A stretch of 64,000 bases of DNA from positions 1-64,000 of the forward strand of contig JAJXTV010000020.1 of assembly GCA_021783515.1 (NCBI GenBank), read 5' to 3'. This document shows, piece after piece, positions 49,996 through 64,000 of the stretch (within the stretch, counting starts at the first letter, position 1; every line of letters starts with the position of its first letter). This stretch comes from Nitrospirota bacterium. GTDB taxonomy: Bacteria; Nitrospirota; Thermodesulfovibrionia; Thermodesulfovibrionales; UBA6898. The position numbers and the translations under genes are program-made. The notes under the pieces are model-generated. The model saw only the letters and a list, made by a program, of their open reading frames with translations. It searched no databases and was not told the origin of the DNA.

Positions 49996-50187
49996 ATGAA
50001 GATACCGGTTGTGGATTATGAGGCATGCGAGGGCTGCGGCACCTGCGAGGCGATCTGCCCCGACGTCTTCAAGGTAAAGGAAGACGGCAAGGCGCACGTC
50101 GTGAGTACGAAGGGCTGCGAGACCTGCAACTGCCAGGAGGCGGTCGATTCCTGTCCGGTCGAATGCATCAAGATGGAAGAGCAATAA
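49996..50187 (+). CDS. Ferredoxin, single [4Fe-4S] type
   Basis: 63 residues starting MKIPVVDYEACEGCGTCEAI, with the cluster motif CEGCGTCEAICP near the start and the fourth ligand in the closing SCPVECIKM. Two more cysteines (GCETCNCQ) lie in between, where monocluster ferredoxins of sulfate reducers often carry a disulfide or a second cluster. It is a soluble low-potential electron carrier. The start at 49996 is supported by CGGAGGAAAGACG. The partner enzyme is unknown. Confidence 0.92.
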   Translation: MKIPVVDYEACEGCGTCEAICPDVFKVKEDGKAHVVSTKGCETCNCQEAVDSCPVECIKMEEQ

Positions 50188-50200
50188 GGATGGCGAAGGG

Positions 50201-50220
50201 GGCCTGCTGTCCGGCAGGCC
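50201..50220. terminator. Hairpin between convergent genes
   Basis: GGCCTGC and GCAGGCC form a perfect 7-bp stem around six bases, extended by GGGG/CCCC with one bulge. It stands between the ferredoxin stop and the stop of the convergent gene at 50238 and may serve both directions, although T-runs are poor. Confidence 0.5.
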
Positions 50221-50237
50221 ACCCCTGGGAAAGCGCC

Positions 50238-50894
50238 TTATGCTTCTTCGGCGGCCGGGCTCACGATGTGGTTCAGCCAGATAAGGTTGAAGACGTCCCC
50301 GTATTCCTTTAGGTAGTCCTTCATCCCGCCTTCCGGATTCACGTTTCGAACATACCTCTTGAACTGTTTGTCGACGCCGGCGAGGACCGCCTTCTTCCTG
50401 TCGGGGGAAAAGGGATAGACGCAGCCGCTCATCACGACTTTGTCGTCGAGCGTCAGGAGCCTCGCCGCGAAGATATCGCCCTTTTTCAGCCCTCTCGTGA
50501 GGCCCTTGTCCCTCAGCGAGAACTCCCCTCCGACCAGGAGGTCCTTGACCAGGACCCTCTTGTCCTTCGAGACCGCGGCGACCTCGTAGAGACTCAGCGA
50601 AGAGCCCTTGATCTTTTCGAGGACCGTCCGCTCCTCCTCCTTCAGGTCGCCGCTGTTCTTCATATAGATGTCGATGAAGGACTCCTTCTCCTCGTTGGCG
50701 CGGTAGTCGAAGAGGAGCCAGTCTTCGAAGTTGTGAAAGCCGAGTTCCAGCGCGGTGCCGCCCATGACCTCGTCCGGATGCTGCTCGTCCCAGAAATATT
50801 CGTAGGCCTTGTCGATCGCCTCGGCGTGGTTCATCCTCACGTAATGGATGATCGACTGAAAGAGCCTCGTTTTGATATCTTCTTCTTTGCCCAT
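50238..50894 (-). CDS. Uncharacterised protein, possibly related to SEC-C-associated domain
   Basis: 218 residues. The N-terminal half is helical and ends in HNFEDWLLFDYRANEEKESF. The second half is beta-rich: SLSLYEVAAVSKDKRVLVKD, LLVGGEFSLRDKGLTRGLKK and GDIFAARLLTLDDKVVMSG. From memory this order (WLLFDY, LYEV, valine-rich strand, GDIFAARL) resembles a domain found beside SEC-C metal motifs in many bacteria, but no SEC-C cysteine motif is present here. Cytoplasmic. Function unknown. Confidence 0.72.
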   Translation of the reverse strand: MGKEEDIKTRLFQSIIHYVRMNHAEAIDKAYEYFWDEQHPDEVMGGTALELGFHNFEDWLLFDYRANEEKESFIDIYMKNSGDLKEEERTVLEKIKGSSLSLYEVAAVSKDKRVLVKDLLVGGEFSLRDKGLTRGLKKGDIFAARLLTLDDKVVMSGCVYPFSPDRKKAVLAGVDKQFKRYVRNVNPEGGMKDYLKEYGDVFNLIWLNHIVSPAAEEA

Positions 50895-50956
50895 TGATCG
50901 TTCTCCTTATGAAATTGCACCTTCTGCGGCGGCTGCACAACGACGTCCCGGCTGTC

Positions 50957-51484
50957 TCACCAGTATCTCACCGGCCCGACGTCGATATGCACGAACTCCG
51001 GATACAGCCCGACCCCGCCGGAATCAAAGGACTTGGCGACGCCGGCGATCTTCTTCGTCCCGATACCGTCGACGGCGAAGTCGATGGCGAGCCCGCGCAT
51101 ATGATAGCTGTGGCTGGCGACATGTCTTCCCATATCCCGGAGATATTCGTTATATTCGGGGGAGCGGTATCCCGAGATGATCCTCAGCCGTTCGCCCGGG
51201 GCGATCCGGCTGCTGATCTCGCTCAGAAGGTCGAGGACGCCGACCGCGATCGTCTTGACCTTGTTCGTATAATGGCACCTCAGGAGATAATTGATCCTGT
51301 CGAGCGCCTCGTAGTCGTATCTGCCGGCGCTATAATAGCATATGTCGAGGCTCTCTTCGGTATGGATATTATAAAGATTGAGAGTGCGGTCGGGATTTGG
51401 GGCGGCGAATGCCCCCGCCGTGCCGAACTGAAATACTGCCGAGGCAGCAAGTACGGTCTTGAGAAAGCGTCTTCTCGAGATCAT
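50957..51484 (-). CDS. YcbK/DUF882-type M15 peptidase with Tat signal
   Basis: 175 residues. The N-terminus MISRRRFLKTVLAASAVF is a twin-arginine export signal. The mature domain is the DUF882/peptidase M15A fold: GYRSPEYNEYL, the zinc ligands in SHSYHMRGLAIDF (His ... Asp) and FVHIDVGPVRYW (last His). Relatives trim peptidoglycan cross-links or L,D-bonds. Cofactor-bearing or folded export through Tat is noteworthy for a zinc enzyme. It lies 62 bases upstream of the unknown gene at 50238-50894 on the same strand. Confidence 0.92.
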   Translation of the reverse strand: MISRRRFLKTVLAASAVFQFGTAGAFAAPNPDRTLNLYNIHTEESLDICYYSAGRYDYEALDRINYLLRCHYTNKVKTIAVGVLDLLSEISSRIAPGERLRIISGYRSPEYNEYLRDMGRHVASHSYHMRGLAIDFAVDGIGTKKIAGVAKSFDSGGVGLYPEFVHIDVGPVRYW

Positions 51485-51957
51485 GGATCTTTCCTCCCTT
51501 GGGTTTGCTTTCCCGCATTTCGCGGCCGGTCGTAATCAGGGCCGCAGCCGTCGGAGAAACAAAACGGCGTCGTCGCATGCGCATATCCGCTACCGGGCAA
51601 CGATATCCCAGAAAGACCTCCGAAGCCGGCAGGGACGCGACTCGCATTACAGCGGGGTTTTACCATCACGTTATTCCGTCGGTCCACTATATACATGAGG
51701 GATGCTGCCTGTTCATGCTCATTTGATGTCTATGCATGAATTGCCATATTGTAACCTTCCCGGCCGGTTTAACTCAACTCCGCTGTTGCAAAATCGGCAA
51801 CAGTCCTCGTTGCGTCCGGTTATTCTGCATCTCGCGGGACCCGGCATTGACAACAGCGGCGCCGATTGATTACAAACAATAAGAAAGGCGAAAACCCAGT
51901 GAAAGAGCGTGAGAAGGCGAAGGCCCGCCGCGTAATGTTTTCAGAGGCGCCAGAGAG
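51485..51957. other. Intergenic region without a recognisable gene
   Basis: These 473 bases separate divergent genes. Stable inverted repeats are present: GCGGCC/GGCCGC near 51522-51545 and a perfect 7-bp stem CTGTTGC / GCAACAG at 51783-51803. GC content falls around 51690-51780, where promoters would be expected. The open frames across it show no recognisable protein. Confidence 0.5.
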
Positions 51958-52662
51958 ATGCTGATCATAACCGGGACAGGCAGGTCCGGTACCGCTACGC
52001 TGGCGAGGATCTTCGGAGGGCATCACGAATTCAGGGTCAGGTATATTCTCGACAAGTACTTCCAGGGGGCCGACCCGGCAGTCGACCCGTTCGACGCGCT
52101 CGAGAAAAGGCTGGCGGCGATGCTCGATCTCCATCAGGGGATCGACAGGACGACCTTTATCGATTCCTCTAACCTCTATATCCATTTCATCGACGCGATA
52201 TATCTTCTGGACCCCTCCGCAAGATTCGCCCTGTCCGTAAGAAACGGGAAGGACTTCGTCAGGTCCGCCTTCAGCCGCGGGTGGCATGAGCAGAATATCT
52301 TCGGCACGGTCCCGCTGCGCGATGATCCATATTTCACGCGATGGGGCTCGATGTCTCCTCTTCAGAAAAACGCCTGGATCTGGACCTGGAGGAATAAAAA
52401 GGCGTTGAAGGGACTTGAGGGCATTCCTGCCGGGCAGAAGATGATTCTCAGGATCGAAGATATAAAAAAAGAAGAGACGCTCGGCAGGCTAGCGGCCTTC
52501 GCCGGGCTGCCGGTCCATCACAGGGAGCTTGCCGAAAAAGGGTGCAATGCAAACCCCTCCTTCAGCCTCCCTCCCAAGGAGGAATGGACCCGGCAGATGA
52601 ACGACGAGTTCGACGGGATCGCGGGGGAGATGATGAGGGTTTTGGGGTATGGCGGAGACTGA
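51958..52662 (+). CDS. Sulfotransferase-family protein
   Basis: 234 residues. The N-terminal loop LIITGTGRSGTATLARIFGG matches the 5'-phosphosulfate-binding P-loop of PAPS-dependent sulfotransferases. A second region, ARFALSVRNGKDFVRSAFSR, corresponds to the 3'-phosphate-binding part (V-R-N-P-x-D/R-x-xxS). The size is at the lower end of the family. The acceptor is unknown; polysaccharides or lipids are usual. No signal peptide. The start is an ATG after GAGAG. It stands alone, just upstream of rpmH. Confidence 0.8.
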   Translation: MLIITGTGRSGTATLARIFGGHHEFRVRYILDKYFQGADPAVDPFDALEKRLAAMLDLHQGIDRTTFIDSSNLYIHFIDAIYLLDPSARFALSVRNGKDFVRSAFSRGWHEQNIFGTVPLRDDPYFTRWGSMSPLQKNAWIWTWRNKKALKGLEGIPAGQKMILRIEDIKKEETLGRLAAFAGLPVHHRELAEKGCNANPSFSLPPKEEWTRQMNDEFDGIAGEMMRVLGYGGD

Positions 52663-52715
52663 AGGGCCATTATGTTGCCACGGGGCCGATGACCCCTCCC
52701 CCATCGCCCACTCGC

Positions 52716-52745
52716 TTGACATCTCCGTAAAGTACGGTTTATAAT
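52716..52745 (+). promoter_or_regulatory. rpmH operon promoter
   Basis: TTGACA (52716-52721), an 18-base spacer and TATAAT (52740-52745): both hexamers are perfect. It drives rpmH and probably rnpA-yidD-yidC. Confidence 0.85.
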
Positions 52746-52764
52746 TGGTGCTCAGGAAAAAACT

Positions 52765-52905
52765 ATGGGAACGTATACAACATTCCACCCACATAAGGCG
52801 AAGAAGAGAAGGACCCACGGATTCCTTGAGAGGATGAGCTCACCCGGCGGGCGCAACGTCATCAAGAGGAGAAGAAAAAAGGGACGGAAAAGACTGGCCG
52901 TTTAA
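52765..52905 (+). CDS. rpmH: 50S ribosomal protein L34
   Basis: 46 residues, [20 protein letters not shown] then [20 protein letters not shown] and RKRLAV. The strongly basic sequence, with the HGF(xxRMxTxxGRxVIxxRRxKGRxxLxV) pattern, identifies L34. The usual start is MKRTYQPS; here it is changed to MGTYTTFHP, which is seen in several phyla. A CAGGAAAAAAC ribosome site precedes the ATG. It heads the rpmH-rnpA-yidD-yidC-mnmE cluster. Confidence 0.97.
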
Positions 52906-52916
52906 CCTGCAGCAAG

Positions 52917-53273
52917 GTGTACTGTTCCCTTGTGAGAAAAGGGGACTTTAAACGGGTATTCGATTCCGGCCGCAAATTTTCTTCCAGGTATCTTGTGATT
53001 TATGCCTTGCCGAGCGGCCTCGACTTCAGCAGGCTCGGCCTCGCCGTCAGCAGGAAAATCGGAAACGCAGTGACCAGGAACAGGGTGAAACGGCGTCTGA
53101 GGGAATCGGTGAGGAAACGCTTGGCGGGAAGTTCTCTGAGGTGCGATATCGTCATCGTCGCGAGGAGCGCGGCCGCTGAAGCCGCATTTGCCGATCTCGA
53201 CCGGATGGTTGCGAAAACGTTTGCCGGACTTATAAATGAAAACAATACTGATAGCGATCGTACAATCATATAA
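52917..53273 (+). CDS. rnpA: Ribonuclease P protein component
   Basis: 118 residues of the basic protein that assists the RNase P RNA in tRNA 5' maturation. The RNR motif ([20 protein letters not shown]) is complete, preceded by [16 protein letters not shown]. The start is a GTG at 52917, 11 bases after rpmH; another GTG at 52932 would begin at VRKGDFK. The C-terminus overlaps yidD by 38 bases, a common feature of this cluster. Confidence 0.95.
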
Positions 53274-53445
53274 ATTCCTCATCTCCCCAATTCTGCCCGG
53301 AAGCTGCAGGTTCGTTCCGTCCTGCTCGGAATACTCGCTCGAAGCGCTCCAAAAGTACGGCGCGCTGAAGGGCTCCTGGTTGTCGGCGCGCAGGGTGGCC
53401 CGGTGCCATCCGTTTCACCCCGGCGGCTACGATCCGGTGAAATAG
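53236..53445 (+). CDS. yidD: Membrane protein insertion efficiency factor YidD
   Basis: 69 residues with the diagnostic pattern [20 protein letters not shown] followed by [20 protein letters not shown] and [17 protein letters not shown]. YidD is a small membrane-associated protein aiding insertion by YidC. It starts within rnpA and ends two bases before yidC. Confidence 0.97.
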
Positions 53446-53447
53446 TC

Positions 53448-55022
53448 ATGGAAAACAAGACCCTCCTCGCGATAGCCCTCTCGATGTTCGTGCTCATCGG
53501 GTTTCAGTTTCTTGTCGCAAAGCAGCAGCCCCCCGTCCAGCCGGCGAAGCCCGGGGCTACCGCTCCTGCTCCGAAGAAAGAGGAGGCTGCCAAGACGGCC
53601 GCCCCCGCTGCGGTAGAAGTGCCCCCCCAGACCGCTCCCGCCGAGGAAAAAGAGATACGGGTCGAAAACAGCCTCTTTTCGGCTGTTCTCAGCTCACGGG
53701 GGGGGACCGTAAAATTCTGGGAGCTAAAAAAATACAAGGACCAGAAGGGAAAAGACGTCGTCCTTCTTCCGAAAACCGGTCCTCTTCCCGCGCTCGGGAT
53801 CGGCGCCGACACCACATTCGACCTTTCGCGGGCAAACTTCACCGTTGTCGGAAACGATCTTACCCTGGACGGAAGCAACAAGTCGGGGACGATCGTCTTC
53901 GAATACGCCAAAGACGGCGTATCGGTCAGAAGGACGTACACGTTTTATGCGGACACCTACTCGTTCGACCTCGCGGATCAGGTCTCGGGAATGCCGTCGT
54001 ACTGGATAACCCTCGGGTCCGACTTCGGCGCATTCGAAAAAGAGGCGGGCTACGCCCACCTCGGTCCTGCGCTCCTGAAGGGCACCTCCCTCGAGGAGCT
54101 GAAGCCGAAAAAACTGACCGAGCCGAAGACCTTCAAGGACGACCTGAAATGGATCGCCCAGGAGGACAAGTATTTCTGTTCGGCGATCGTGCCAGCCGCA
54201 ATCGGGGAAGTCTTAGAGGCGAGGGCCTGGCTCTACGAGGGCTCGCCGGTGATAGCGTTTCAGGGGAAGCCGGGGGAAAACAAGTTCCATATATACGCCG
54301 GGCCGAAGGAAAACGACAGGCTCGAAAAACTCGGCTTCGGCCTACAGTATATCATCGATTTCGGCTTCTTCTCGATCATCGCGAGGCCGCTCTTCTGGAT
54401 ACTGAAGTTCTTCTACGCGTCCATCGGGAACTACGGCTGGTCGATCATCCTCCTTACGATCGTCGTGAGGACACCCTTCATCCCTCTGCTGAACAAGGGC
54501 CAGAGATCGATGAGGAAGCTTCAGGAGCTCCAGCCGAAGATGAACGAGATCAAGGAAAAGTACAAGAAAGACCCGCAGAAGATGCAGGCCGAGATGATGG
54601 AGCTTTACAAAAAATACAAGGTGAACCCTATGGGCGGCTGTCTGCCGATGCTCGTGCAGATCCCGTTCTTCTTCGCACTCTACAAGGTGCTCCTCGTCTC
54701 GATCGAGCTGAGGGGTGCGCCCTGGCTGCTCTGGATCACCGACCTGTCTGCGCCGGATACCCTCTTCGGCCATCTTGCCGGGTTTTCGCTGGGCGGTCCT
54801 CTTCCCTATCTGATGGGCATAACCATGCTGATCCAGCAGAAGATGACGCCCACCAGCGCTGACCCGAAACAGGCGAAAATGATGATGCTGATGCCTATCG
54901 TCTTCACCTTCATGTTCCTGAACTTCGCGTCCGGCCTCGTCCTGTACTGGCTCGTCAACAACCTCCTGAGCATCATCCAGCAGTTCTTCGTCAACAAGAA
55001 GCTCGCAAAGCAAAGCGCCTGA
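53448..55022 (+). CDS. yidC: Membrane protein insertase YidC
   Basis: 524 residues, the Gram-negative long form. It begins with an N-terminal membrane helix (LLAIALSMFVLIGFQFLVAK) and a Pro/Ala-rich linker. The large periplasmic domain (residues 75-320) and the conserved C-terminal insertase core with five helices follow. The core includes the GNYGWSIILLTIVVR segment with its conserved arginine, LQPKMNEIKEKYKKDPQKM, and GGCLPMLVQIPFFFALYKVL. It inserts and folds inner-membrane proteins. I chose ATG 53448. The jag gene that often follows is missing and mnmE comes next. Confidence 0.97.
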   Translation: MENKTLLAIALSMFVLIGFQFLVAKQQPPVQPAKPGATAPAPKKEEAAKTAAPAAVEVPPQTAPAEEKEIRVENSLFSAVLSSRGGTVKFWELKKYKDQKGKDVVLLPKTGPLPALGIGADTTFDLSRANFTVVGNDLTLDGSNKSGTIVFEYAKDGVSVRRTYTFYADTYSFDLADQVSGMPSYWITLGSDFGAFEKEAGYAHLGPALLKGTSLEELKPKKLTEPKTFKDDLKWIAQEDKYFCSAIVPAAIGEVLEARAWLYEGSPVIAFQGKPGENKFHIYAGPKENDRLEKLGFGLQYIIDFGFFSIIARPLFWILKFFYASIGNYGWSIILLTIVVRTPFIPLLNKGQRSMRKLQELQPKMNEIKEKYKKDPQKMQAEMMELYKKYKVNPMGGCLPMLVQIPFFFALYKVLLVSIELRGAPWLLWITDLSAPDTLFGHLAGFSLGGPLPYLMGITMLIQQKMTPTSADPKQAKMMMLMPIVFTFMFLNFASGLVLYWLVNNLLSIIQQFFVNKKLAKQSA

Positions 55023-55074
55023 GCAGGTCCTGTCCCCCTGCCTGGCCGAATCCGAATATCGGCATTCGATAAGG

Positions 55075-55080
55075 TAAACT
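55075..55080 (+). promoter_or_regulatory. mnmE -10 element, leaderless arrangement
   Basis: TAAACT ends six bases before the mnmE ATG, and the gap AATCCT has no ribosome site. The -35 is not clear. mnmE may also be read from the upstream rpmH promoter, in which case it would lack a ribosome site altogether. Confidence 0.35.
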
Positions 55081-55086
55081 AATCCT

Positions 55087-56469
55087 ATGAACCTTCCCGA
55101 CGACACGATCGCTGCGATCTCCACCCCCATCGGCCAGGGTGGCATCGGTATCGTGAGGCTCTCCGGCCCTGAGGCTGTCGCGATCGCGGGGAAGATATTT
55201 GCGCCGGCAGGGAAAAGAAAGCTCTCTTCGGCAAGGTCCTTTACTGTGCTGTACGGCCGCGTGGTCGATCCGGCCGGCAGGCAGGAGATCGACGAGGCGC
55301 TCGTCACGCTGATGAGGGGGCCCCGTTCCTACACAAGGGAAGACGTGGTCGAGATAAACTGCCACGGCGGAATGGTCGCCGTCCGCCGGGTTCTCGACAC
55401 CGCTCTTTCTGCGGGGGCAAGACTTGCGGAGCCGGGGGAGTTTACAAAGAGGGCGTTTCTGAACGGCAGGATAAGCCTCGCGCAGGCCGAGGCGGTGATG
55501 GACCTAATCTCGGCAAGGACCGAAGAAAGCATGAGGATCGCCGGGGAGCAGCTCCGGGGAAGGCTTTCCGGGGAGCTCGGCCGGCTGAGGGAGTCCCTCG
55601 TCGGGCTATGCGCGAACGTCGAGGCCCATATCGATTTCCCCGAGGAGGAGATCGAGCCGGAGACGATTGCGGAGATTGCCGTCCGCATCGCCGCGGTGAA
55701 AGCGGACCTCGAACGGCTGTCGAAGACGTTCGACGAGGCCCGGTTCTTCAGGGAGGGTCTCTCGGTGGCGATCGTCGGCAGACCGAATGTCGGCAAGTCC
55801 TCGCTTCTGAACGCGCTCCTGAAGAGAGACCGGGCGATCGTGACCGAGGTGCCCGGCACCACCAGAGACACAATCGAGGAGTACCTCAATATCGAGGGGC
55901 TCCCGGTAAGGATCGTCGATACCGCCGGCATCAGGCATACGGACGAGGCGGTCGAGCGGGAAGGGATCAGAAGGAGCCTCGATGCGCTCGATGCGGCCGA
56001 TTACGCGGTCGTCGTGCTCGACGGGAGCGAGCCGCTCAGGGAAGAGGACCTCGAGCTCCTGAAAAGGGTACGGGAAAGAACTGCGGTGATCGCGATCAAT
56101 AAGTCCGACCTGAAGCAGCGGATCTCCCGGGAGGAGCCGGTCTTTCAGGGGAAAGACCTGATCGGGATCTCGGCAGCGCGCGGGGAGGGGATCGAAGAGC
56201 TGAAATCCGTACTCCTGCAGGCGAACCTCCGGGACTGGAAAGAAGAGCGTGAAGGGCCGGTCGTCACAAACATTCGGCACAAACAGGCCCTCGACAAATC
56301 TGCAGCCGCCCTCGGACGCGCCGCGGGCGTGCTCGCATCCGCCGGCCACCTCGAACTCCTCGCGATCGAACTGAGGGAGGCCGCTGACAGCCTCGGAGAG
56401 ATTACCGGCGCAATCACGACGGACGAGATCCTGAACAGGATATTCGCCGATTTCTGTATAGGAAAATAG
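55087..56469 (+). CDS. mnmE: tRNA modification GTPase MnmE
   Basis: This 460-residue protein, partner of MnmG in U34 modification, has the N-terminal formyl-THF-binding domain (DTIAAISTPIGQGGIGIVRL; CHGGMVAVRRVL). A helical domain contains the G domain (GRPNVGKSSLLN about residue 230, VPGTTRDTIEEY, DTAGIRH, NKSD), and the C-terminal FCIGK carries the conserved cysteine. Intact in all motifs. Confidence 0.97.
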   Translation: MNLPDDTIAAISTPIGQGGIGIVRLSGPEAVAIAGKIFAPAGKRKLSSARSFTVLYGRVVDPAGRQEIDEALVTLMRGPRSYTREDVVEINCHGGMVAVRRVLDTALSAGARLAEPGEFTKRAFLNGRISLAQAEAVMDLISARTEESMRIAGEQLRGRLSGELGRLRESLVGLCANVEAHIDFPEEEIEPETIAEIAVRIAAVKADLERLSKTFDEARFFREGLSVAIVGRPNVGKSSLLNALLKRDRAIVTEVPGTTRDTIEEYLNIEGLPVRIVDTAGIRHTDEAVEREGIRRSLDALDAADYAVVVLDGSEPLREEDLELLKRVRERTAVIAINKSDLKQRISREEPVFQGKDLIGISAARGEGIEELKSVLLQANLRDWKEEREGPVVTNIRHKQALDKSAAALGRAAGVLASAGHLELLAIELREAADSLGEITGAITTDEILNRIFADFCIGK

Positions 56470-56661
56470 CAGAGAATTTTGTAGAATAAAGATGTAAACA
56501 GGAGTCATCTTGTCCGGAACGTCGCCGGTACCGCGGCGAATAGGGACCTCAACCCCTGTTTCTCCGTCAGGCGCTCCCGGCGGGGAGGTTTGACGGCAGC
56601 TCAATCAGGTCCGATTATTATGAAATGCATCACTGAAAGACAGAGGAAAGCATAGGGGGCC

Positions 56662-58317
56662 ATGCAGTCGAAAATCGTATATGTAATAGGCCATAAGAAT
56701 CCGGATTCCGACTCGGTCTGCTCGGCGATCGGGTATGCCCACTTCAAGAACCTGACCGACAAGAGGTTTATCTTCACGCCCGCGCGGGCAGGCAGGCTGA
56801 ACGAGGAGACGAGCTTCATCCTCGACCGGTTCGGCGTGCCGGTCCCCAACGAGGTCGAAAGCCTCGGCGCCACGGTGAGCGACCTCGTGCTGCAGCGGCC
56901 GATATCCGTCCATATCCGCGACTCGGTCCAGGCGCTTGCACTCCTGATGAGAGAGAAGAACGTGCGTGCGGTCCCTGTCGTGGACGATGCCGGCAGGTTC
57001 GCCGGGGTGGTCGGACTGAAAGACATCGCCCGCCACTACATGGAAAGCGTCGGGTTTACGGACATTACCGGCGCACCGATCAGCCTCGACATCTTCATTA
57101 AGACCCTCGACGGAAGGGTGATCAGCAACTCGCGAAAGGCCCGGACGCTCGCCGGAAAGATCTTTATCGCCTCGATGCAGAAAGGTACGATCCTCAACAG
57201 GGTCGGAGAGGGAGACATCGTGATCGTCGGGGACCAGCAGGACATCCAGACCGACCTGATACGGGCGGGATGCGCGGTCCTTGTCGTTACCGACGGCATG
57301 CCGGTCAGCAATGCGGTAATCGCCGCGGCGGAGGAGCGCGGGACCCTGCTCATCTCGTCTCCCCACCAGGCCTTCGCGACGGTGCAGCTGATGACGATGT
57401 CCGAGCCGGTCTCCTCGATCATGTGCGCGTCGAACCCCATGGTCGGCCTTTATACCTCGATTTCGGACCTCAGGAAAAGCATTCTTGAGTCCGAGTACCG
57501 CTCAGCCGTAGTCGTCGACAGCGACGAACGGCTGATCGGGTTCGTGACGAGGACGGACCTTCTGACCCCCGTCCGGAAGAAGGCGATCCTTGTCGACCAC
57601 AACGAGCTGTCGCAGGCGGTCGACAATATCGAGGAGGCCGAGATACTCGAGATCATCGACCATCACAGGGTCGGCGACATTTCTACCGTCGCCCCGATCT
57701 ATGTCTACAACGATCCGATCGGGAGCACCTGCACCGTCGTGGCCGGCATGATGTTTCTGCACGGGGTGCATATCCCGCCCGAGATCGCCGGGCTCCTTCT
57801 CTCCGGGATACTGTCGGACACGCTTATTCTCACCCTCTCGACGACGACCGGCAGGGACAGGACCGCGGCCGAACGCCTTGCCGAGATCGCCGGCGTGCCG
57901 CTCAAGGATTACGGGAAGGAGCTGCTGCGCGCCAGCATCAGCATAGAAGGAAAGACGGCGGCCGAGCTGATCGCCGCGGACTTCAAGGAATTTCTGATCG
58001 ACGGCAGGAGGTTCGGAATCAGCCAGATGATGGTGCTCGACTGCAAGGACATCGACCTCAGGGAAGAGGAGTTTCTGGCCGAACTGGAGCGTCTCCGGAC
58101 AACGAACAATTACGATCTGGCGGTGCTGCTCGTAACGAACCCCCTCAGCTCGAAGCAGGAGAGGGTGCTTCTGAAGGGCGAGACCTGGATCGTCGAGAAG
58201 GCCTTTCACGTGAAGGTCGAGGACGATACCTGCATCCTGCCCGAGGTGCTCTCCAGGAAAAAGGACTTCATCCCTGCGCTCGGCCGCGCGCTCAGCATGA
58301 GCAGGCACGGGGGATAG
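56662..58317 (+). CDS. ppaC: CBS-DRTGG-regulated manganese-dependent pyrophosphatase
   Basis: 551 residues, a family II inorganic pyrophosphatase. The DHH catalytic domain is split. Its start (IGHKNPDSDSVCSAIGYAHF) is followed by CBS 1 (RPISVHIRDSVQALALLMRE), a DRTGG domain (about residues 140-245) and CBS 2 (PVSSIMCASNPMVGLYTSIS). Then come the remaining DHH part (VDHNELSQAV, EIIDHHRVGD) and the DHHA2 domain. CBS pyrophosphatases are inhibited by AMP/ADP and activated by ATP or diadenosine polyphosphates. GGGGG precedes the ATG. Confidence 0.95.
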   Translation: MQSKIVYVIGHKNPDSDSVCSAIGYAHFKNLTDKRFIFTPARAGRLNEETSFILDRFGVPVPNEVESLGATVSDLVLQRPISVHIRDSVQALALLMREKNVRAVPVVDDAGRFAGVVGLKDIARHYMESVGFTDITGAPISLDIFIKTLDGRVISNSRKARTLAGKIFIASMQKGTILNRVGEGDIVIVGDQQDIQTDLIRAGCAVLVVTDGMPVSNAVIAAAEERGTLLISSPHQAFATVQLMTMSEPVSSIMCASNPMVGLYTSISDLRKSILESEYRSAVVVDSDERLIGFVTRTDLLTPVRKKAILVDHNELSQAVDNIEEAEILEIIDHHRVGDISTVAPIYVYNDPIGSTCTVVAGMMFLHGVHIPPEIAGLLLSGILSDTLILTLSTTTGRDRTAAERLAEIAGVPLKDYGKELLRASISIEGKTAAELIAADFKEFLIDGRRFGISQMMVLDCKDIDLREEEFLAELERLRTTNNYDLAVLLVTNPLSSKQERVLLKGETWIVEKAFHVKVEDDTCILPEVLSRKKDFIPALGRALSMSRHGG

Positions 58318-58393
58318 GCCCCCTTTCCGGATTGTATCCTTCGCCGCATGCTTGAAGGATGGCCAATGCGCTGGAGGGGGCAAAAAAGAAGAT

Positions 58394-60220
58394 TCAGCGG
58401 ATTCCTGTTGCAGTTTTTGCCGCCTGTGGTTGTCCGTCCGACCGGCATCTTCTAATCCTTCCGACATGATATCCGAGGAGTTGGAGAGGGATCAGCGTGA
58501 GGAAGGGAAGAAGCGCCGGGTGCGTGGACGGTACCACCAATACCTCGTCCGCCACCGTGCTCACCAATGCGGGCGAGTCGGTCACCGTCACTACCAGGCC
58601 GCCCATCTCTCTCACCCTTATTATTTCGTGCAGGATTTCGTCATCGAGACTTTCGATAGGGGATACAAATACTACGGGAACGCCTTCGCGGATTAGCGCG
58701 AGGGGCCCGAATTTCAACTCTCCCATCGGATACCCTTCCGCGTGGAAGGAGGAAAGTTCCATCATCTTCAGCGCGCCTTCCTTCGCAATGGGATAATTGA
58801 TGCCCCTGCCCAGATACACGAAATCCTTCGAATGCGCGAGCATCCGGGCGGCATCTCTCACCTTATCTTCGTTGGAGAGGACCCGTCTGATAAGACCCGG
58901 CAGGTTAAGGAGCAGGGATTTAAGCGTCTCGACTTCCACATCGAGCAGGGTGCCTTTTCTTTCTCCGAGGGCGATGCCCAGCAGACAAAGGGAAGCGAGT
59001 TGCGCCGAAAACGCCTTTGTCGATACCCCTCCCCTCTCACAGCCTGCGCGCGTATGAAGGACAGAATCGGCTTCCCGGGTGGAGGTGCTGCCGGCCGTAT
59101 TGCAGACAGCAAGGACGAACGCACCCTTCTTCCTGGCGTCGCGCTGCGCTGCAACAGTGTCTGCAGTCTCGCCGGACTGGCTGAGCGCCACAAAATAAGT
59201 GCCCTTGGTGATATTAGGCCTCATGTAGACGTACTCAGACGAAATATCGACGGTGACGGGGATATGAACAAACTTCTCGATCAGATACCGTCCCACGAGC
59301 CCCGCGTGATACGAAGAACCGCAGCCTACGATGTGCAATCTTCTGACGCACTGAAGATGACTCTTCAGACCGAGTTTCTCCAGCAGCCCGTCGGGGTCGT
59401 CGATCCATTCCGCGATGGTGTCCATGACTGCCTGGGGCTGCTCCTGCATCTCTTCGAGAAGCACGTCCCCATCCGCAGGCTTTTCGCCGGACGGGTAATC
59501 CGTTCTGACTTCCGTTTTATCCTCTTCGGGCGATATCATCGGGACGGGGCGGGCGTTCAATACCTCCATCCCGTACCGCCGGAGCCGGCATATCTTTCCA
59601 TCCTCCGGGAAGAGGAACTTTCTCGTGTAGGGGAAAACAGACAGCATGTCCGATCCGAAGAAGGCCTCATCATCCCCAAGGGCCGCGACAAGAGGGCTTC
59701 CATTTTTTACGAGATAGACGGTCTCGGGGGAGCTGTCGAAGAGAAATGCCAGGGCATAGCGCCCCTGCAGCATCGACACCGTCCTGCCAATCGCATCCCC
59801 CACCGCAACACCTCTAAGGAGCAACTCGGCGATAAGTGTTGAGATGTGTTCCGTATCCTCGAAGTGCAGCCCCGCATTTCCCTTGGCGGAAGGGCGTTTT
59901 CTCAGATTCGGGGCATCGAGAATCCCGGCGCATACGACCTGAATTCCTGCTTCGTGATGCACTGCGACGTCCGGCGAAAACGGCAAATCATCTGCCGACC
60001 AGCCGGTGTACCCGATCCCGACCCTTGCCTCCGGGAAGGGACGAGGAAGGATGCCATGGAGCTTCGCGGCCCCTCCCCAGGCTTTGCAGCTCTCCAGCCC
60101 CCTGCCATTTTGATAGGCGATGACGGTGCGCGAAAGCCCTTGGCACTGCAGTCTTTTTAACTCGTCCAGCAAGACCGGCAGGGCACATCTATGGCCGACA
60201 TATCCAGCTATTCCCCGCAT
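58394..60220 (-). CDS. GlmS paralogue with inactivated glutaminase domain
   Basis: 608 residues, alignable along its length with the GlmS at 60269-62098. The catalytic Cys at position 2 is Arg (MRGIAGYVG for MCGIVGYIG). Glutamine-binding HTRWATHG has become YTGWSADD, HNGII has become CAGIL, and SETDTE has become FEDTEH. The isomerase half keeps GCGSSYHAG, SQSGETADT and the EGALKMME glutamates, but the ring-opening histidine is Phe (KFGP for KHGS). It should still bind a sugar phosphate but should not use glutamine. It follows glmS by 48 bases with AGAGG upstream. A regulatory subunit or sensor is my inference. Confidence 0.88.
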   Translation of the reverse strand: MRGIAGYVGHRCALPVLLDELKRLQCQGLSRTVIAYQNGRGLESCKAWGGAAKLHGILPRPFPEARVGIGYTGWSADDLPFSPDVAVHHEAGIQVVCAGILDAPNLRKRPSAKGNAGLHFEDTEHISTLIAELLLRGVAVGDAIGRTVSMLQGRYALAFLFDSSPETVYLVKNGSPLVAALGDDEAFFGSDMLSVFPYTRKFLFPEDGKICRLRRYGMEVLNARPVPMISPEEDKTEVRTDYPSGEKPADGDVLLEEMQEQPQAVMDTIAEWIDDPDGLLEKLGLKSHLQCVRRLHIVGCGSSYHAGLVGRYLIEKFVHIPVTVDISSEYVYMRPNITKGTYFVALSQSGETADTVAAQRDARKKGAFVLAVCNTAGSTSTREADSVLHTRAGCERGGVSTKAFSAQLASLCLLGIALGERKGTLLDVEVETLKSLLLNLPGLIRRVLSNEDKVRDAARMLAHSKDFVYLGRGINYPIAKEGALKMMELSSFHAEGYPMGELKFGPLALIREGVPVVFVSPIESLDDEILHEIIRVREMGGLVVTVTDSPALVSTVADEVLVVPSTHPALLPFLTLIPLQLLGYHVGRIRRCRSDGQPQAAKTATGIR

Positions 60221-60268
60221 CGGGCAACCTCTAAAGGAACGGGCTGCAAAGGTTTTTTGCCATGCTGG

Positions 60269-62098
60269 TTACTCCACAGTGACGCTCTTTGCCAGGTTCC
60301 TCGGCCGGTCCACATCACACCCCTTCAGGACGGCAATATGGTACGCCAAAAGCTGAAGCGGTATTACCGTCACGAATGGAGAAAAGAGGGGATGAGTAGA
60401 AGGGACCACCAAGACGTCGTCAGCCTTGTGCGAAACCGCAGCGGGTTCGTCTGTGACTGCTATCACGCGGGCGCCCCGTGCTCTGACCTCCTCGATGTTC
60501 GAGAGGATCTTGTCGAAATGGCTGTTCACCGGGGCCACCGCCACCACCGGCATCCCTTCGTCGATAAGGGCGATGGAGCCGTGTTTCATTTCACCCGCGG
60601 GATATCCTTCCGCGTGGATATACGATATCTCCTTGAGCTTGAGGGCCCCTTCCAGGGCGATGGGATAATTGACCCCCCTGCCGAGATAAAGGATATCCCG
60701 CGTTTCCACGAGGGTCTCGGCAAGGGCCTTGATCTCCGCATTTTTCTTCATGGCCTTTTCAATCAGTTCCGGAACCTTAAAAAGCTGGGCCATCAATATC
60801 TTCAGCTCTCCGTTCATCAGACGTCCCCTTTTGGACGCCAGTCCCATGGCAAGAAGGCAGAGAGCAGCCATCTGGGAAGTAAACGCCTTGGTAGAAGCCA
60901 CGCCTATCTCCGGACCCGCCCTTGTGTAAAGTACAAGGTCGGCATCCCGCGCAGCAGTGCTTCCCACGACGTTACAGATCGTCAGCGCCCTGGCCTCCTT
61001 GTTTTTCGCCTCTCTCTGCGCCGCGAGCGTATCGGCTGTTTCCCCTGACTGCGTGATAGAGATAAACAGGGTGTCATGTTCGATAATAGGCTGCATATAT
61101 CGGTACTCCGATGCGATCTCGACAGATACCGGAATGCGCGCGAGTTCTTCGATCACGTATCTTCCTACTACGGCCGCGTGGTAAGACGTGCCGCAGGCCG
61201 CAATATGGATTCTTTGAAGGCCGAACGTTTTCTTCACGGTGAGCTTTAGATCTTCAATTAATTTTTCGGAACACTCGTTCCACTCGTTGAGCGTATCCTG
61301 CACCGCGCGCGGCTGTTCGTGGATCTCCTTGAGCATAAAATGGTCATAGCCGTCTTTTTCAGCCATGGCAGAAGTCCAGTCCACTTCCACGATGGACGGC
61401 TCCGGAACGGCCTGTTTTGGCTGCCCGAAGTATTTAATATCTATGTCTTTTGCAGAGAGCGCGCAAATCTGGCCGTCTTCAAGATAAAGGAACCTTTTTG
61501 TATGACTGAGAATCGCGGGGATATCGGAGGCAAAGAAGTATTCCCCTTCCCCGTATCCGATCACGAGCGGACTTCCCTTTTTGACTGCGTAAAGGGTCGT
61601 GGGATCGCTCTCGCTCAAGATCCCAAGCGCAAAGGATCCTCTCAGGGCCGAGATTGACTCCACAATAGATTCATACAGGGAAAGTCCTCTCTTCATGTTC
61701 CATGAAATCAGCTGCGGGACCGCTTCGGTATCGGTCTCTGAATAAAAGGTTTCTCCCTCCGCGATAAGCTTTGACCTGATCTCGCGATAGTTCTCGATGA
61801 TCCCGTTATGGACCACCGCAACTCCGCCAATGTAATGGGGATGGGCATTTACTTCGGAGGGCGCCCCGTGGGTGGCCCACCGCGTGTGTCCGATGCCGAC
61901 ATTTGCATGCTCATAGGGGAAAGGCACGATATGTTCCAGCTTCTTTATCCTCCCCGTTGTCTTGTATACCTCTATTCCCTTGCCGTTTTTATAGGCTATG
62001 CCCGAGGAGTCGTATCCCCGGTATTCCAGCCTCTTCAGGCCGTCGATCAAAATCGGCAGCGCATTTTGGTGACCTATGTATCCTACTATTCCGCACAT
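60269..62098 (-). CDS. glmS: Glucosamine-6-phosphate synthase
   Basis: 609 residues of the glutamine:fructose-6-phosphate aminotransferase, which begins amino-sugar synthesis for peptidoglycan and lipopolysaccharide. The glutaminase domain starts with the nucleophile (MCGIVGYIG), with HTRWATHG, HNGIIENY and SETDTE. The isomerase half has CGTSYHAA, TQSGETADT, KHGSIALI and the C-terminal LAKSVTVE. ATG 62098 is fixed by the Cys2 requirement and GAGGAGG; an open frame extends further upstream. A candidate sigma-54 promoter lies about 50 bases before it. Confidence 0.98.
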   Translation of the reverse strand: MCGIVGYIGHQNALPILIDGLKRLEYRGYDSSGIAYKNGKGIEVYKTTGRIKKLEHIVPFPYEHANVGIGHTRWATHGAPSEVNAHPHYIGGVAVVHNGIIENYREIRSKLIAEGETFYSETDTEAVPQLISWNMKRGLSLYESIVESISALRGSFALGILSESDPTTLYAVKKGSPLVIGYGEGEYFFASDIPAILSHTKRFLYLEDGQICALSAKDIDIKYFGQPKQAVPEPSIVEVDWTSAMAEKDGYDHFMLKEIHEQPRAVQDTLNEWNECSEKLIEDLKLTVKKTFGLQRIHIAACGTSYHAAVVGRYVIEELARIPVSVEIASEYRYMQPIIEHDTLFISITQSGETADTLAAQREAKNKEARALTICNVVGSTAARDADLVLYTRAGPEIGVASTKAFTSQMAALCLLAMGLASKRGRLMNGELKILMAQLFKVPELIEKAMKKNAEIKALAETLVETRDILYLGRGVNYPIALEGALKLKEISYIHAEGYPAGEMKHGSIALIDEGMPVVAVAPVNSHFDKILSNIEEVRARGARVIAVTDEPAAVSHKADDVLVVPSTHPLFSPFVTVIPLQLLAYHIAVLKGCDVDRPRNLAKSVTVE

Positions 62099-62159
62099 GG
62101 TGTGCCTCCTCTTCGCATCGGTATTTATGCCGGGTCTTTTTTCATCCGTAATGTTTCGT

Positions 62160-62175
62160 TGCAAAAAATGTACCC
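62160..62175 (-). promoter_or_regulatory. Candidate sigma-54 promoter of glmS
   Basis: Minus strand GGGTACATTTTTTGCA fits TGGCACGNNNNTTGCA: the GG and GC pairs are exactly ten bases apart, and AC and TTGCA match. Transcription would start near 62150, about 50 bases before the glmS ATG. An NtrC-type activator is encoded divergently 1.3 kb away. Confidence 0.6.
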
Positions 62176-62218
62176 GCGGGCCCAACTTCAAACCGAGAGC
62201 TGCCTCTAATATTTTCAC

Positions 62219-62247
62219 TTGACAATCGATTAAATAGATTTAATAAT
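62219..62247 (+). promoter_or_regulatory. Promoter reading toward the histidine kinase gene
   Basis: TTGACA (62219-62224), a 17-base spacer and AATAAT (62242-62247). A perfect palindrome, ATTAAA-TAGA-TTTAAT (62229-62244), fills the spacer and could be an operator. Confidence 0.6.
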
Positions 62248-62301
62248 GTGCTCATGAACGGAGAAGTCGGGCAGTCGTCCAACAAGTTCCTGCTTGACAC
62301 A

Positions 62302-62316
62302 GCGGATTGTATCCGC
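62302..62316. promoter_or_regulatory. Candidate activator-binding palindrome
   Basis: GCGGAT-TGT-ATCCGC is a perfect inverted repeat about 150 bases upstream of the predicted sigma-54 start of glmS, the usual distance for an NtrC-family activator site. It could equally be a hairpin in the RNA transcribed from the promoter at 62219. Confidence 0.45.
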
Positions 62317-62346
62317 CGGATCCAAACGAGCGAGGGCTCTCTGCGG

Positions 62347-62373
62347 AAGGGCAGCATCAAAGCTGCCTTTTCC
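62347..62373 (+). terminator. Terminator or attenuator before the histidine kinase gene
   Basis: GGCAGC pairs with GCTGCC around ATCAAA, the stem extends through AAG/TTT to nine pairs and TTTTCC follows. It lies between the promoter at 62219 and the kinase coding region, so it could attenuate the operon or end a short RNA. Confidence 0.6.
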
Positions 62374-62396
62374 TGAAACGAAATGAGTGTGACGAA

Positions 62397-63461
62397 GTGG
62401 AAGAAGGGTTCTCGTTCGAAGTGGATAAGAATTTACGCATCATTTCCTGGGGAGAAAAGCTTGGGCAGGTCATGGGGAAGTCTGCCCGGAGCGCCCTCGG
62501 CAAGGTCTACCACGAGGAATTACCAAGATTTCTGATAGAGGACAGCGACGCCCTGGCGTTGTCCGTGTCGGGAAACGAGCCGATCACCCTGAAGAAATAT
62601 TCTTTCACGTGTCCGCAAGACGGAATGACTGCGGACATACGGATCGAGCCGCGGGAAGAAGAGCCAGACGCAATGGGGAAAGACGAGGGGGGCGCGAAGG
62701 TGACCCTTTCCAATCTGACCTGCCCCGTATTACAAAGCATGAAGAATGCGCAGCGGTTCATCGGCCTCGGCAAGACGGCGTCCACGCTTGCGCACGGGGT
62801 GAGGAACCCGCTCAACGCGATGAGGGGGGCAGTCCTGTATCTCAGCGAAAAATATAAGGATGAGCGCACCCTTGGCGAGTTTGCGGCGATTATGGAAGAC
62901 GAGATAAAGAGGTTCGACGATTTTATTTCGCAGTTCCTCGCCACCTCCGCGGTTGAGGCCGAATCCTCCGTGACGGACATCAATTCGCTGCTGAAAAAAA
63001 TTGAAGTCCTGACATCCTACCAAACACACGTTCACCAGATACGAACGGTATACGAATACGGCGAGATCCCCCCTATCATGGCGAACGCTTTCCAACTGGA
63101 ACACGCGCTTCTCAACATCATCAACAATGCGATTGAGGTCATGCGCGGAGGGGGGAGACTCACGGTGAAAACCCGTCTTGAGCCCTCTTTCGGAGGATAT
63201 TACATCGCAATCGAGATTTCGGATACCGGGTCGAGAATATCGGGAGACGCTATGCTGCAGGATGCGCCGGAAGCACAGGCGGAAAACAGAGGAAAGGGAT
63301 TCGGGCTGCTTATTACACGCGAAATTCTAAAGGGTTATGGTGGATATCTTGATCTTAAAACCAGAAAGGGCAAAGGATCAGTGGCCCGGTTGTTTATCGC
63401 CGCCGACGATAAGGGGGACAAAAATGAACGGCAAGGGAGACATTCTCATAGTAGACGATGA
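62397..63461 (+). CDS. NtrB-like sensor histidine kinase
   Basis: This is a cytoplasmic kinase of about 354 residues, without membrane segments. A PAS-like sensor region (FEVDKNLRIISWGEKLGQVM) is followed by the H-box LAHGVRNPLNAMRGAV (phosphorylated His) and an ATPase domain: the N-box HALLNIINNAIEVM, DTGSRIS and GKGFGLLITREIL. The start is uncertain: no good ribosome site was found. I chose GTG 62397; TTG 62307 and GTG 62421 are alternatives. It overlaps the response regulator gene by 38 bases and lies divergent from glmS. Confidence 0.88.
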   Translation: MEEGFSFEVDKNLRIISWGEKLGQVMGKSARSALGKVYHEELPRFLIEDSDALALSVSGNEPITLKKYSFTCPQDGMTADIRIEPREEEPDAMGKDEGGAKVTLSNLTCPVLQSMKNAQRFIGLGKTASTLAHGVRNPLNAMRGAVLYLSEKYKDERTLGEFAAIMEDEIKRFDDFISQFLATSAVEAESSVTDINSLLKKIEVLTSYQTHVHQIRTVYEYGEIPPIMANAFQLEHALLNIINNAIEVMRGGGRLTVKTRLEPSFGGYYIAIEISDTGSRISGDAMLQDAPEAQAENRGKGFGLLITREILKGYGGYLDLKTRKGKGSVARLFIAADDKGDKNERQGRHSHSRR

Positions 63462-64000
63462 GCCGAATGCGCTGACGGTTCTCTCGGCCATACTGTCCGA
63501 GGAAGGATACAGCGTGCTGCATTCCGGAGACGTTGATACCGCGACGGAACTGATATATAACCATACCGTCGACGCCGTCATAACAGACATCAAGATGCCG
63601 GGGAAAGACGGGATGTTTTTTTTCGACTATGTGACTAAAAACCATCCCCGGGTCCCGGTTATATTTCTCACCGCCTACGGCACGGTCGAGTCTGCAGTGT
63701 CAGCCATGACGCGCGGCGCCTTCCACTATTTCGTGAAGCCGCCTGACTATCGGATCCTCAAGAGCGTTCTTGCACGGGCAGTGAAGCAGCATGCAGCAGG
63801 CGGAGAGGACGCCCCCCACGAGGCGGAGAGGACGTGCAGTGAATACCGCTCCGGCTTTTTCGGAAATACGCCGGAAATGCGTAAGGTATTCGATACTATC
63901 GAGGCGGTTAAGAGCTCTCGCAGCGATGTGATCATCTGCGGCGAGACCGGGACCGGCAAGGAACTGATCGCGCTGGCGCTGCAGGATGATGACGGGGATA
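63424..64000 (+). CDS. NtrC-family response regulator (cut by window end)
   Basis: Only the first 192 residues are in the window. The receiver domain has the acidic pocket DILIVDDEPNAL, the phospho-acceptor aspartate in VITDIKMPGKDG, FLTAYGT and the lysine in FVKPP. A linker leads to an AAA+ sigma-54 activation domain, whose Walker A GETGTGKELIALAL is visible just before the edge. It would activate sigma-54 promoters once phosphorylated by the kinase encoded upstream. The GAFTGA loop and DNA-binding domain lie beyond the window. Confidence 0.92.
   Translation, partial: MNGKGDILIVDDEPNALTVLSAILSEEGYSVLHSGDVDTATELIYNHTVDAVITDIKMPGKDGMFFFDYVTKNHPRVPVIFLTAYGTVESAVSAMTRGAFHYFVKPPDYRILKSVLARAVKQHAAGGEDAPHEAERTCSEYRSGFFGNTPEMRKVFDTIEAVKSSRSDVIICGETGTGKELIALALQDDDGD

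Follow-up and report, generated by a model that had tools for sequence, protein, structure and literature searches.

A catalytically degenerate GlmS paralogue beside an accessory GlmS in a Nitrospirota genome, a putative non-catalytic partner subunit

The GlmS2a-GlmS2b locus

The stretch of Nitrospirota DNA analysed here (64,000 nt, hereafter the window) encodes two adjoining GlmS proteins on its minus strand, which we denoted GlmS2a and GlmS2b. A third glmS, intact and located on contig C9, is the housekeeping copy of this genome. The features of the locus are as follows.

58394..60220, minus strand: degenerate GlmS paralogue (GlmS2b, pseudo-GlmS), 608 aa, an intact ORF with end-to-end GlmS homology and orthologues in G001, G002 and G004
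59504..60220, minus strand: former glutaminase (Ntn) domain of GlmS2b, residues 1-239, fold core retained and glutamine pocket erased
60215..60217, minus strand: codon 2, catalytic Cys1 replaced by Arg, as in 4/4 orthologues
58445..59488, minus strand: isomerase domain with two SIS subdomains, residues 245-592, strongly conserved (Pfam SIS, dN/dS, Foldseek)
58709..58711, minus strand: codon 504, His504 (normally supplied to the adjacent subunit's active site) replaced by Phe
58397..58444, minus strand: degenerate C-terminal loop, SDGQPQAAKTATGIR replacing DVDxPRNLAKSVTVE, frameshifted in three relatives
60221..60268, minus strand: 48-nt gap between GlmS2a and GlmS2b, carrying the ribosome-binding site
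60269..62098, minus strand: GlmS2a, an accessory GlmS in which every catalytic residue is present, lying upstream of GlmS2b in what appears to be one operon
62160..62175, minus strand: sigma-54-type -24/-12 element GGGTACATTTTTTGCA, 62-77 nt upstream of GlmS2a
62307..63461, plus strand: NtrB-like histidine kinase, divergent from GlmS2a, with an NtrC-like sigma-54 activator (GAFTGA motif) encoded after it on the contig

The GlmS2b ORF starts with ATG and runs for 608 codons on the minus strand without an internal stop. Residues 1-604 of E. coli GlmS (4AMV) aligned with it over its full length (E = 3e-94), and it passed the GlmS profile TIGR01135 with 452.2 bits against a cut-off of 418.05 (positions 3-605). 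Pfam recognized the SIS domains (4.6e-44) and left the glutaminase half unrecognised, and identity to GlmS2a was 45%. The ribosome-binding site reads AGAGG ~7 nt 5' of the ATG, and GGAGG in relatives. These results bear out an earlier sequence-only reading, which had described a full-length GlmS relative, open over 608 codons and with a good ribosome binding site. That reading had also placed the gene behind glmS; it does lie directly behind a GlmS, but this neighbour is the accessory GlmS2a and not the housekeeping enzyme. An assignment of GlmS2b to the SIS-type GlcN6P deaminases (NagB-II) was rejected on score (116.8 bits against a cut-off of 430). Rfam gave no riboswitch or ribozyme match within 50000-64000. 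On the other side of GlmS2b, the convergent neighbour (56662-58317, plus strand) encodes a CBS-DRTGG-type manganese-dependent inorganic pyrophosphatase, and the gene order on this side is not common to the relatives examined.

No match to the strict sigma-54 consensus string was found in the window. A looser -24/-12 score was devised after the NtrC-like neighbour had been seen, with the upstream regions of housekeeping glmS genes as the control. A sigma-54-type GG-N10-GC element was present no more than 150 nt from the start in 33/35 GlmS2 genes, 0/19 GlmS1 genes and 0/7 second genes, against a background of 6.7%. Across the Nitrospirota order, the accessory GlmS2 genes have in common this type of element and a divergent NtrB/NtrC-like pair, whereas housekeeping glmS lacks the element. 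This suggests that GlmS2a is a dedicated, inducible accessory GlcN6P synthase under predicted sigma-54 control. All six copies of the degenerate GlmS2b lie directly downstream of GlmS2a, and no promoter-like site of their own was found. From the spacing and this absence, we infer that GlmS2b would be expressed from the GlmS2a promoter, and the two genes probably form one operon. Genes encoding an UpxY antiterminator, a PseC-like aminotransferase and a polyprenyl glycosylphosphotransferase occur near GlmS2 in relatives, and the context as a whole points to GlcN6P being supplied inducibly for surface polysaccharide.

Residues lost and constraint retained in GlmS2b

Residue positions are given in E. 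coli GlmS numbering. The alignment with E. coli GlmS revealed nine changes in the glutaminase half (C1R, R26Q, Y28L, R73G, T76A, H77D, H86A, H97C, and N98A) and H504F in the isomerase half, while W74, G99, D123, S303, Q348, S349, T352, K485, and E488 were kept and a Lys aligned with K603. In the glutamine pocket and oxyanion hole (Arg73, Thr76, His77, Asn98, Gly99, Asp123), the window copy retains Gly99 and Asp123 only. The N-terminal nucleophile Cys1 is Arg in all four full-length degenerate orthologues, and the domain that would carry it is deleted in two further copies (G017 and G020). Among the catalytic isomerase residues of GlmS, which are Glu488, His504, and Lys603 (PMC9272926), Glu488 is kept, His504 is Phe and Lys603 has its aligned counterpart; the phosphate-binding residues are retained together with Lys485 and Glu488. 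The Cys-to-Arg change, the replacement of the glutamine-holding Arg and Asn, the His-to-Phe change and the preserved sugar-phosphate-binding motifs had all been noted in the sequence-only reading.

However, its description of a gene with only the catalytic residues lost was too mild. When positions invariant among 35 intact GlmS2 proteins were taken as the reference, the degenerate GlmS2b proteins had changed 24-27 of 57 in the glutaminase half (~45%), 17-19 of 81 in the isomerase half (~22%), and 9-12 of 13 in the C-terminal loop, the heavily altered part that couples the two GlmS domains. Because Cys1, Arg73, Asn98, and His504 are gone and the C-terminal loop is degenerate, GlmS2b is predicted to be incapable of glutamine hydrolysis and of glutamine-dependent GlcN6P synthesis by the known mechanism. 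Compared with GlmS as defined by TIGR01135, it thus shares the full-length two-domain build, the isomerase fold, the phosphate-binding motifs, Lys485 and Glu488, but lacks these four residues and a regular C-terminal loop.

An AlphaFold2 model of GlmS2b, built from a 10-sequence alignment (mean pLDDT 76.8, pTM 0.60), kept the Ntn core strands at pLDDT ~80-90, with values dropping under 50 in loops 76-90 and 110-120, which correspond to the lost glutamine loops; the C-terminal loop was also of low confidence. The isomerase half showed the GlmS fold with two SIS subdomains by both Pfam SIS and Foldseek, the latter superposing it on the GlmS isomerase domains 3tbf and 7dnr at 2.0-2.2 A over ~345 columns.

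Three genomes of the same genus (G001, G002, and G004; MAGs WY3.bin57, DBS2-1.bin90, and SKS1.bin124) carry a GlmS2b orthologue at 71-73% identity. C1R, H97C, N98A, and H504F are identical in 4/4 species of the genus, the GlmS2a-GlmS2b order is the same, and the frame is open across ~590 conserved codons in all four, with dS reaching 0.9. Pairwise dN/dS of GlmS2b was 0.09-0.14 in the isomerase half and 0.32-0.45, or ~threefold relaxed, in the glutaminase half, with the 95% CI below 1 for all pairs tested in both halves. GlmS2a in these genomes had dN/dS of ~0.03-0.06 (isomerase) and 0.08-0.18 (glutaminase), the isomerase-half value of GlmS2b being 2-3 times that of GlmS2a. Constraint on GlmS2b is relaxed yet real and is strongest in the isomerase half; the catalytic residues have been lost while selection keeps the protein.

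Since three relatives share the key changes beside the same glmS, GlmS2b is not a product of sequencing error, nor is it a dead gene. Sequencing error was ruled out by the same substitutions in independent MAGs at 71-73% identity, and a plain pseudogene was ruled out for the isomerase half by dN/dS, with the frame open in four species and both halves below 1. The sequence-only reading had judged the gene to be probably used and had proposed looking for the same Cys-to-Arg paralogue beside glmS in related genomes. The paralogue was found in three genus genomes under purifying selection on both halves (dN/dS < 1), which supports that judgement, and the contrary outcomes it had named, decay in relatives and sequencing error, were looked for in the relatives and not found.

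The last codons of GlmS2b differ within the genus. In the three relatives they are shifted by one base relative to the window copy, and the Lys603-bearing tail is replaced, whereas the tail of the window copy is diverged and still recognisable. The replacement is a new stretch of ~25 aa that is conserved among the three (L044 3930-4008, L045 9109-9190, L046 184-265). Because these relatives tolerate a frameshift there, the precise geometry of the C-terminal loop is not required in GlmS2b.

Origin of GlmS2b and loss of its glutaminase

A tree built from the isomerase domains, with column 504 excluded, resolved two clades, one of housekeeping GlmS1 proteins and one of GlmS2 proteins, the latter distributed throughout the order. 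GlmS2b formed a distinct subclade within the GlmS2 clade (support 100/100), and three of its members (G003, G040, and G173) have the full catalytic set. A recent tandem duplication of GlmS2a was rejected, since placing GlmS2b as its sister was excluded with AU p = 2.9e-15, and the simple tandem copy of glmS implied by the sequence-only reading is therefore wrong. GlmS2b instead appears to be a separate lineage that was ancestrally active. Because its clade holds intact members and the sister placement is rejected, a tandem of two active enzymes, such as G040 still has, probably preceded the loss of catalysis in the second gene. In the same genus, G003 (genome 83% complete) has an active-site-intact GlmS2b (L040 8802-10742), and GlmS2a was not found there; on this evidence GlmS2b was probably once a full enzyme.

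In G017 and G020, which belong to two other genera, GlmS2b lies directly behind GlmS2a and the glutaminase domain is physically deleted. G017 retains MCGSIGY alone before the linker and G020 begins at the last glutaminase strands, so that the breakpoints of the two deletions differ. Both proteins have H504Y and keep the C-terminal loop and Lys603; their genes retain RBS, start and frame, and the SIS half has a dN/dS of 0.18. With two SIS domains and no glutaminase, they resemble the SIS-only proteins NagB-II, GlmD, and FrlB. However, GlmS2b is far nearer to GlmS (452 bits against 117 for NagB-II) and arose by loss within GlmS.

Across 176 genomes of the order, the motif GE[LIM]K[FY]GP occurs in exactly six places, namely the four species of the genus, G017 and G020, and an aromatic residue at 504 in the GE-x-K-504-GP context is limited to these six GlmS2b proteins without a working glutaminase. 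One extra match in an even 396-genome sample of the phylum, a metallo-beta-lactamase-fold protein, is unrelated and was discarded as chance. The clade of the six aromatic-504 rows had support of 99/81, which favours a single origin; an alternative that groups the pseudo-GlmS proteins with G003, as in the species, was weakly rejected (p = 0.026), and another alternative to a single origin was not rejected (p = 0.086). The loss of glutamine hydrolysis and the loss of His504 thus appear to be coupled, in one or two events. It should be noted that the lone GlmS2 of G021 (L053, C64, 564-2390) has Cys1 replaced by Ser (MSGIVGY) with His504 intact, suggesting that loss of the nucleophile alone also happens independently.

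Candidate roles for GlmS2b

In human GFAT-1, the sugar bound by one monomer is reached by His577, the equivalent of His504, from the other (PMC7000685), and PDX1.2 (PMC6829848) and TSB-like (PMC12727527) are examples of pseudoenzyme subunits regulating a catalytic partner. Because His504 acts across the dimer interface, our preferred reading, to which we give an even chance, is that GlmS2b is a pseudoenzyme and putative partner subunit that pairs with GlmS2a and tunes its output. The sequence-only reading had hypothesised that the protein regulates GlmS as a partner or senses sugar phosphates, and three observations raise the plausibility of such a role: the apparent co-transcription, the action of His504 across subunits and the domain deletion that took place in parallel in other genera.

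In this reading GlmS2b would be co-expressed with the sigma-54-controlled GlmS2a, the pair probably serving inducible surface-polysaccharide synthesis, and the two would pair via the conserved isomerase-domain dimer interface. Since the sugar sites of known GlmS and GFAT enzymes take their catalytic His from the other subunit, such a heterodimer would have one site without it. Phe504 of GlmS2b would enter the sugar site of GlmS2a, which would lose its histidine, and His504 of GlmS2a would enter the GlmS2b site, where Lys485 and Glu488 are kept and the subunit's own glutaminase is absent. The simplest consequence would be a reduced or retuned output of GlmS2a, with GlmS2b acting as a brake, buffer or tuner, possibly in response to fructose-6-P or glucosamine-6-P, which the retained phosphate pocket could bind. 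Against this, His504 could also be lost in a protein working alone as a homodimer, the isomerase half evolves under 2-3 times the dN/dS of GlmS2a, and three relatives tolerate the C-terminal frameshift. A broader and only tentative proposal is that this Nitrospirota family has a two-gene GlmS, in which GlmS2a would carry the glutaminase and GlmS2b would be a sugar-binding subunit without glutamine use or the trans-acting His. Output would be set by the amount of heterodimer with one spoiled site, the glutaminase having been lost by point erosion and domain deletion.

It is possible, though unlikely, that GlmS2b instead works alone as a homodimeric SIS-domain protein, either a phosphosugar sensor or an isomerase on a new substrate that needs no ring-opening His, with the dead N-terminal domain as a structural leftover. 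The retained phosphate-binding motifs, Lys485 and Glu488 are consistent with this, as are the continued selection on the SIS half in the two genera without a glutaminase domain and the common occurrence of SIS-only sugar-phosphate proteins. However, GlmS2b lies directly downstream of GlmS2a in 6/6 cases with no promoter-like site of its own found, the Lys603-bearing loop is gone in three species, and the SIS deaminases and sensors are no closer to GlmS2b than GlmS is. Slow decay, in which a redundant tandem glmS loses constraint stepwise and residual selection acts only against misfolded or interfering protein, is improbable. The relaxed glutaminase half, the frameshifted tails and the domain deletions would fit it, but an isomerase dN/dS of ~0.1, a frame that stays open over this divergence in four species and the intact RBS, start and frame of the isomerase-only genes argue otherwise.

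Mitochondrial carbamoyl-phosphate synthetase 1 is a precedent for giving up glutamine, and an ammonia-dependent GlcN6P synthase would agree with a lost nucleophile beside a retained SIS half and with a His504 lent by GlmS2a in a heterodimer, but we consider this the least probable reading, since His504 is gone in 6/6 copies and Lys603 with the C-terminal loop in three, so that the isomerisation chemistry is compromised too; it would apply mainly to G017 and G020, because the isomerase-only proteins keep Lys603.

The preferred reading, a non-catalytic partner of GlmS2a, has parallels in other systems. PDX1.2 of plant vitamin B6 synthesis (PMC6829848) is a catalytically dead paralogue with induced expression that joins its active paralogue in one oligomer and alters the output, as GlmS2b may do; however, fold and pathway are unrelated, and the PDX1.2 heteromer is solved whereas that of GlmS2b is inferred only. 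TSB-like (PMC12727527) has lost key catalytic residues and kept the surface that regulates its partner, but it is a plant protein, its effect is activating, and its partner TSA is a different protein and no paralogue. EIIA-Ntr and GlmR (PMC5024086; PMC7525490) likewise exert protein-level control of GlmS tied to nitrogen, sigma-54 and cell-envelope supply, although these regulators are unrelated to GlmS and are no paralogues of it. In a literature search of limited extent, we found no description of a GlmS pseudoenzyme subunit.

If GlmS2b pairs with GlmS2a, the complex would be a natural mixed dimer in which the cross-subunit His is missing on one side only. It would offer a direct test of crosstalk between the two sugar sites and the glutaminase in an enzyme that has been studied in depth as a model for how ammonia is channelled from one active site to another. 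It would also represent a new way to dose the supply of amino sugars, all of which reach the cell wall and surface polysaccharides by way of GlmS. GlmR/YvcK, a UDP-GlcNAc-binding regulator that acts on GlmS in Bacillus subtilis, is encoded near GlmS2 in two genomes, G019 (L050 8087-9127) and G042 (L055 10706-11746).
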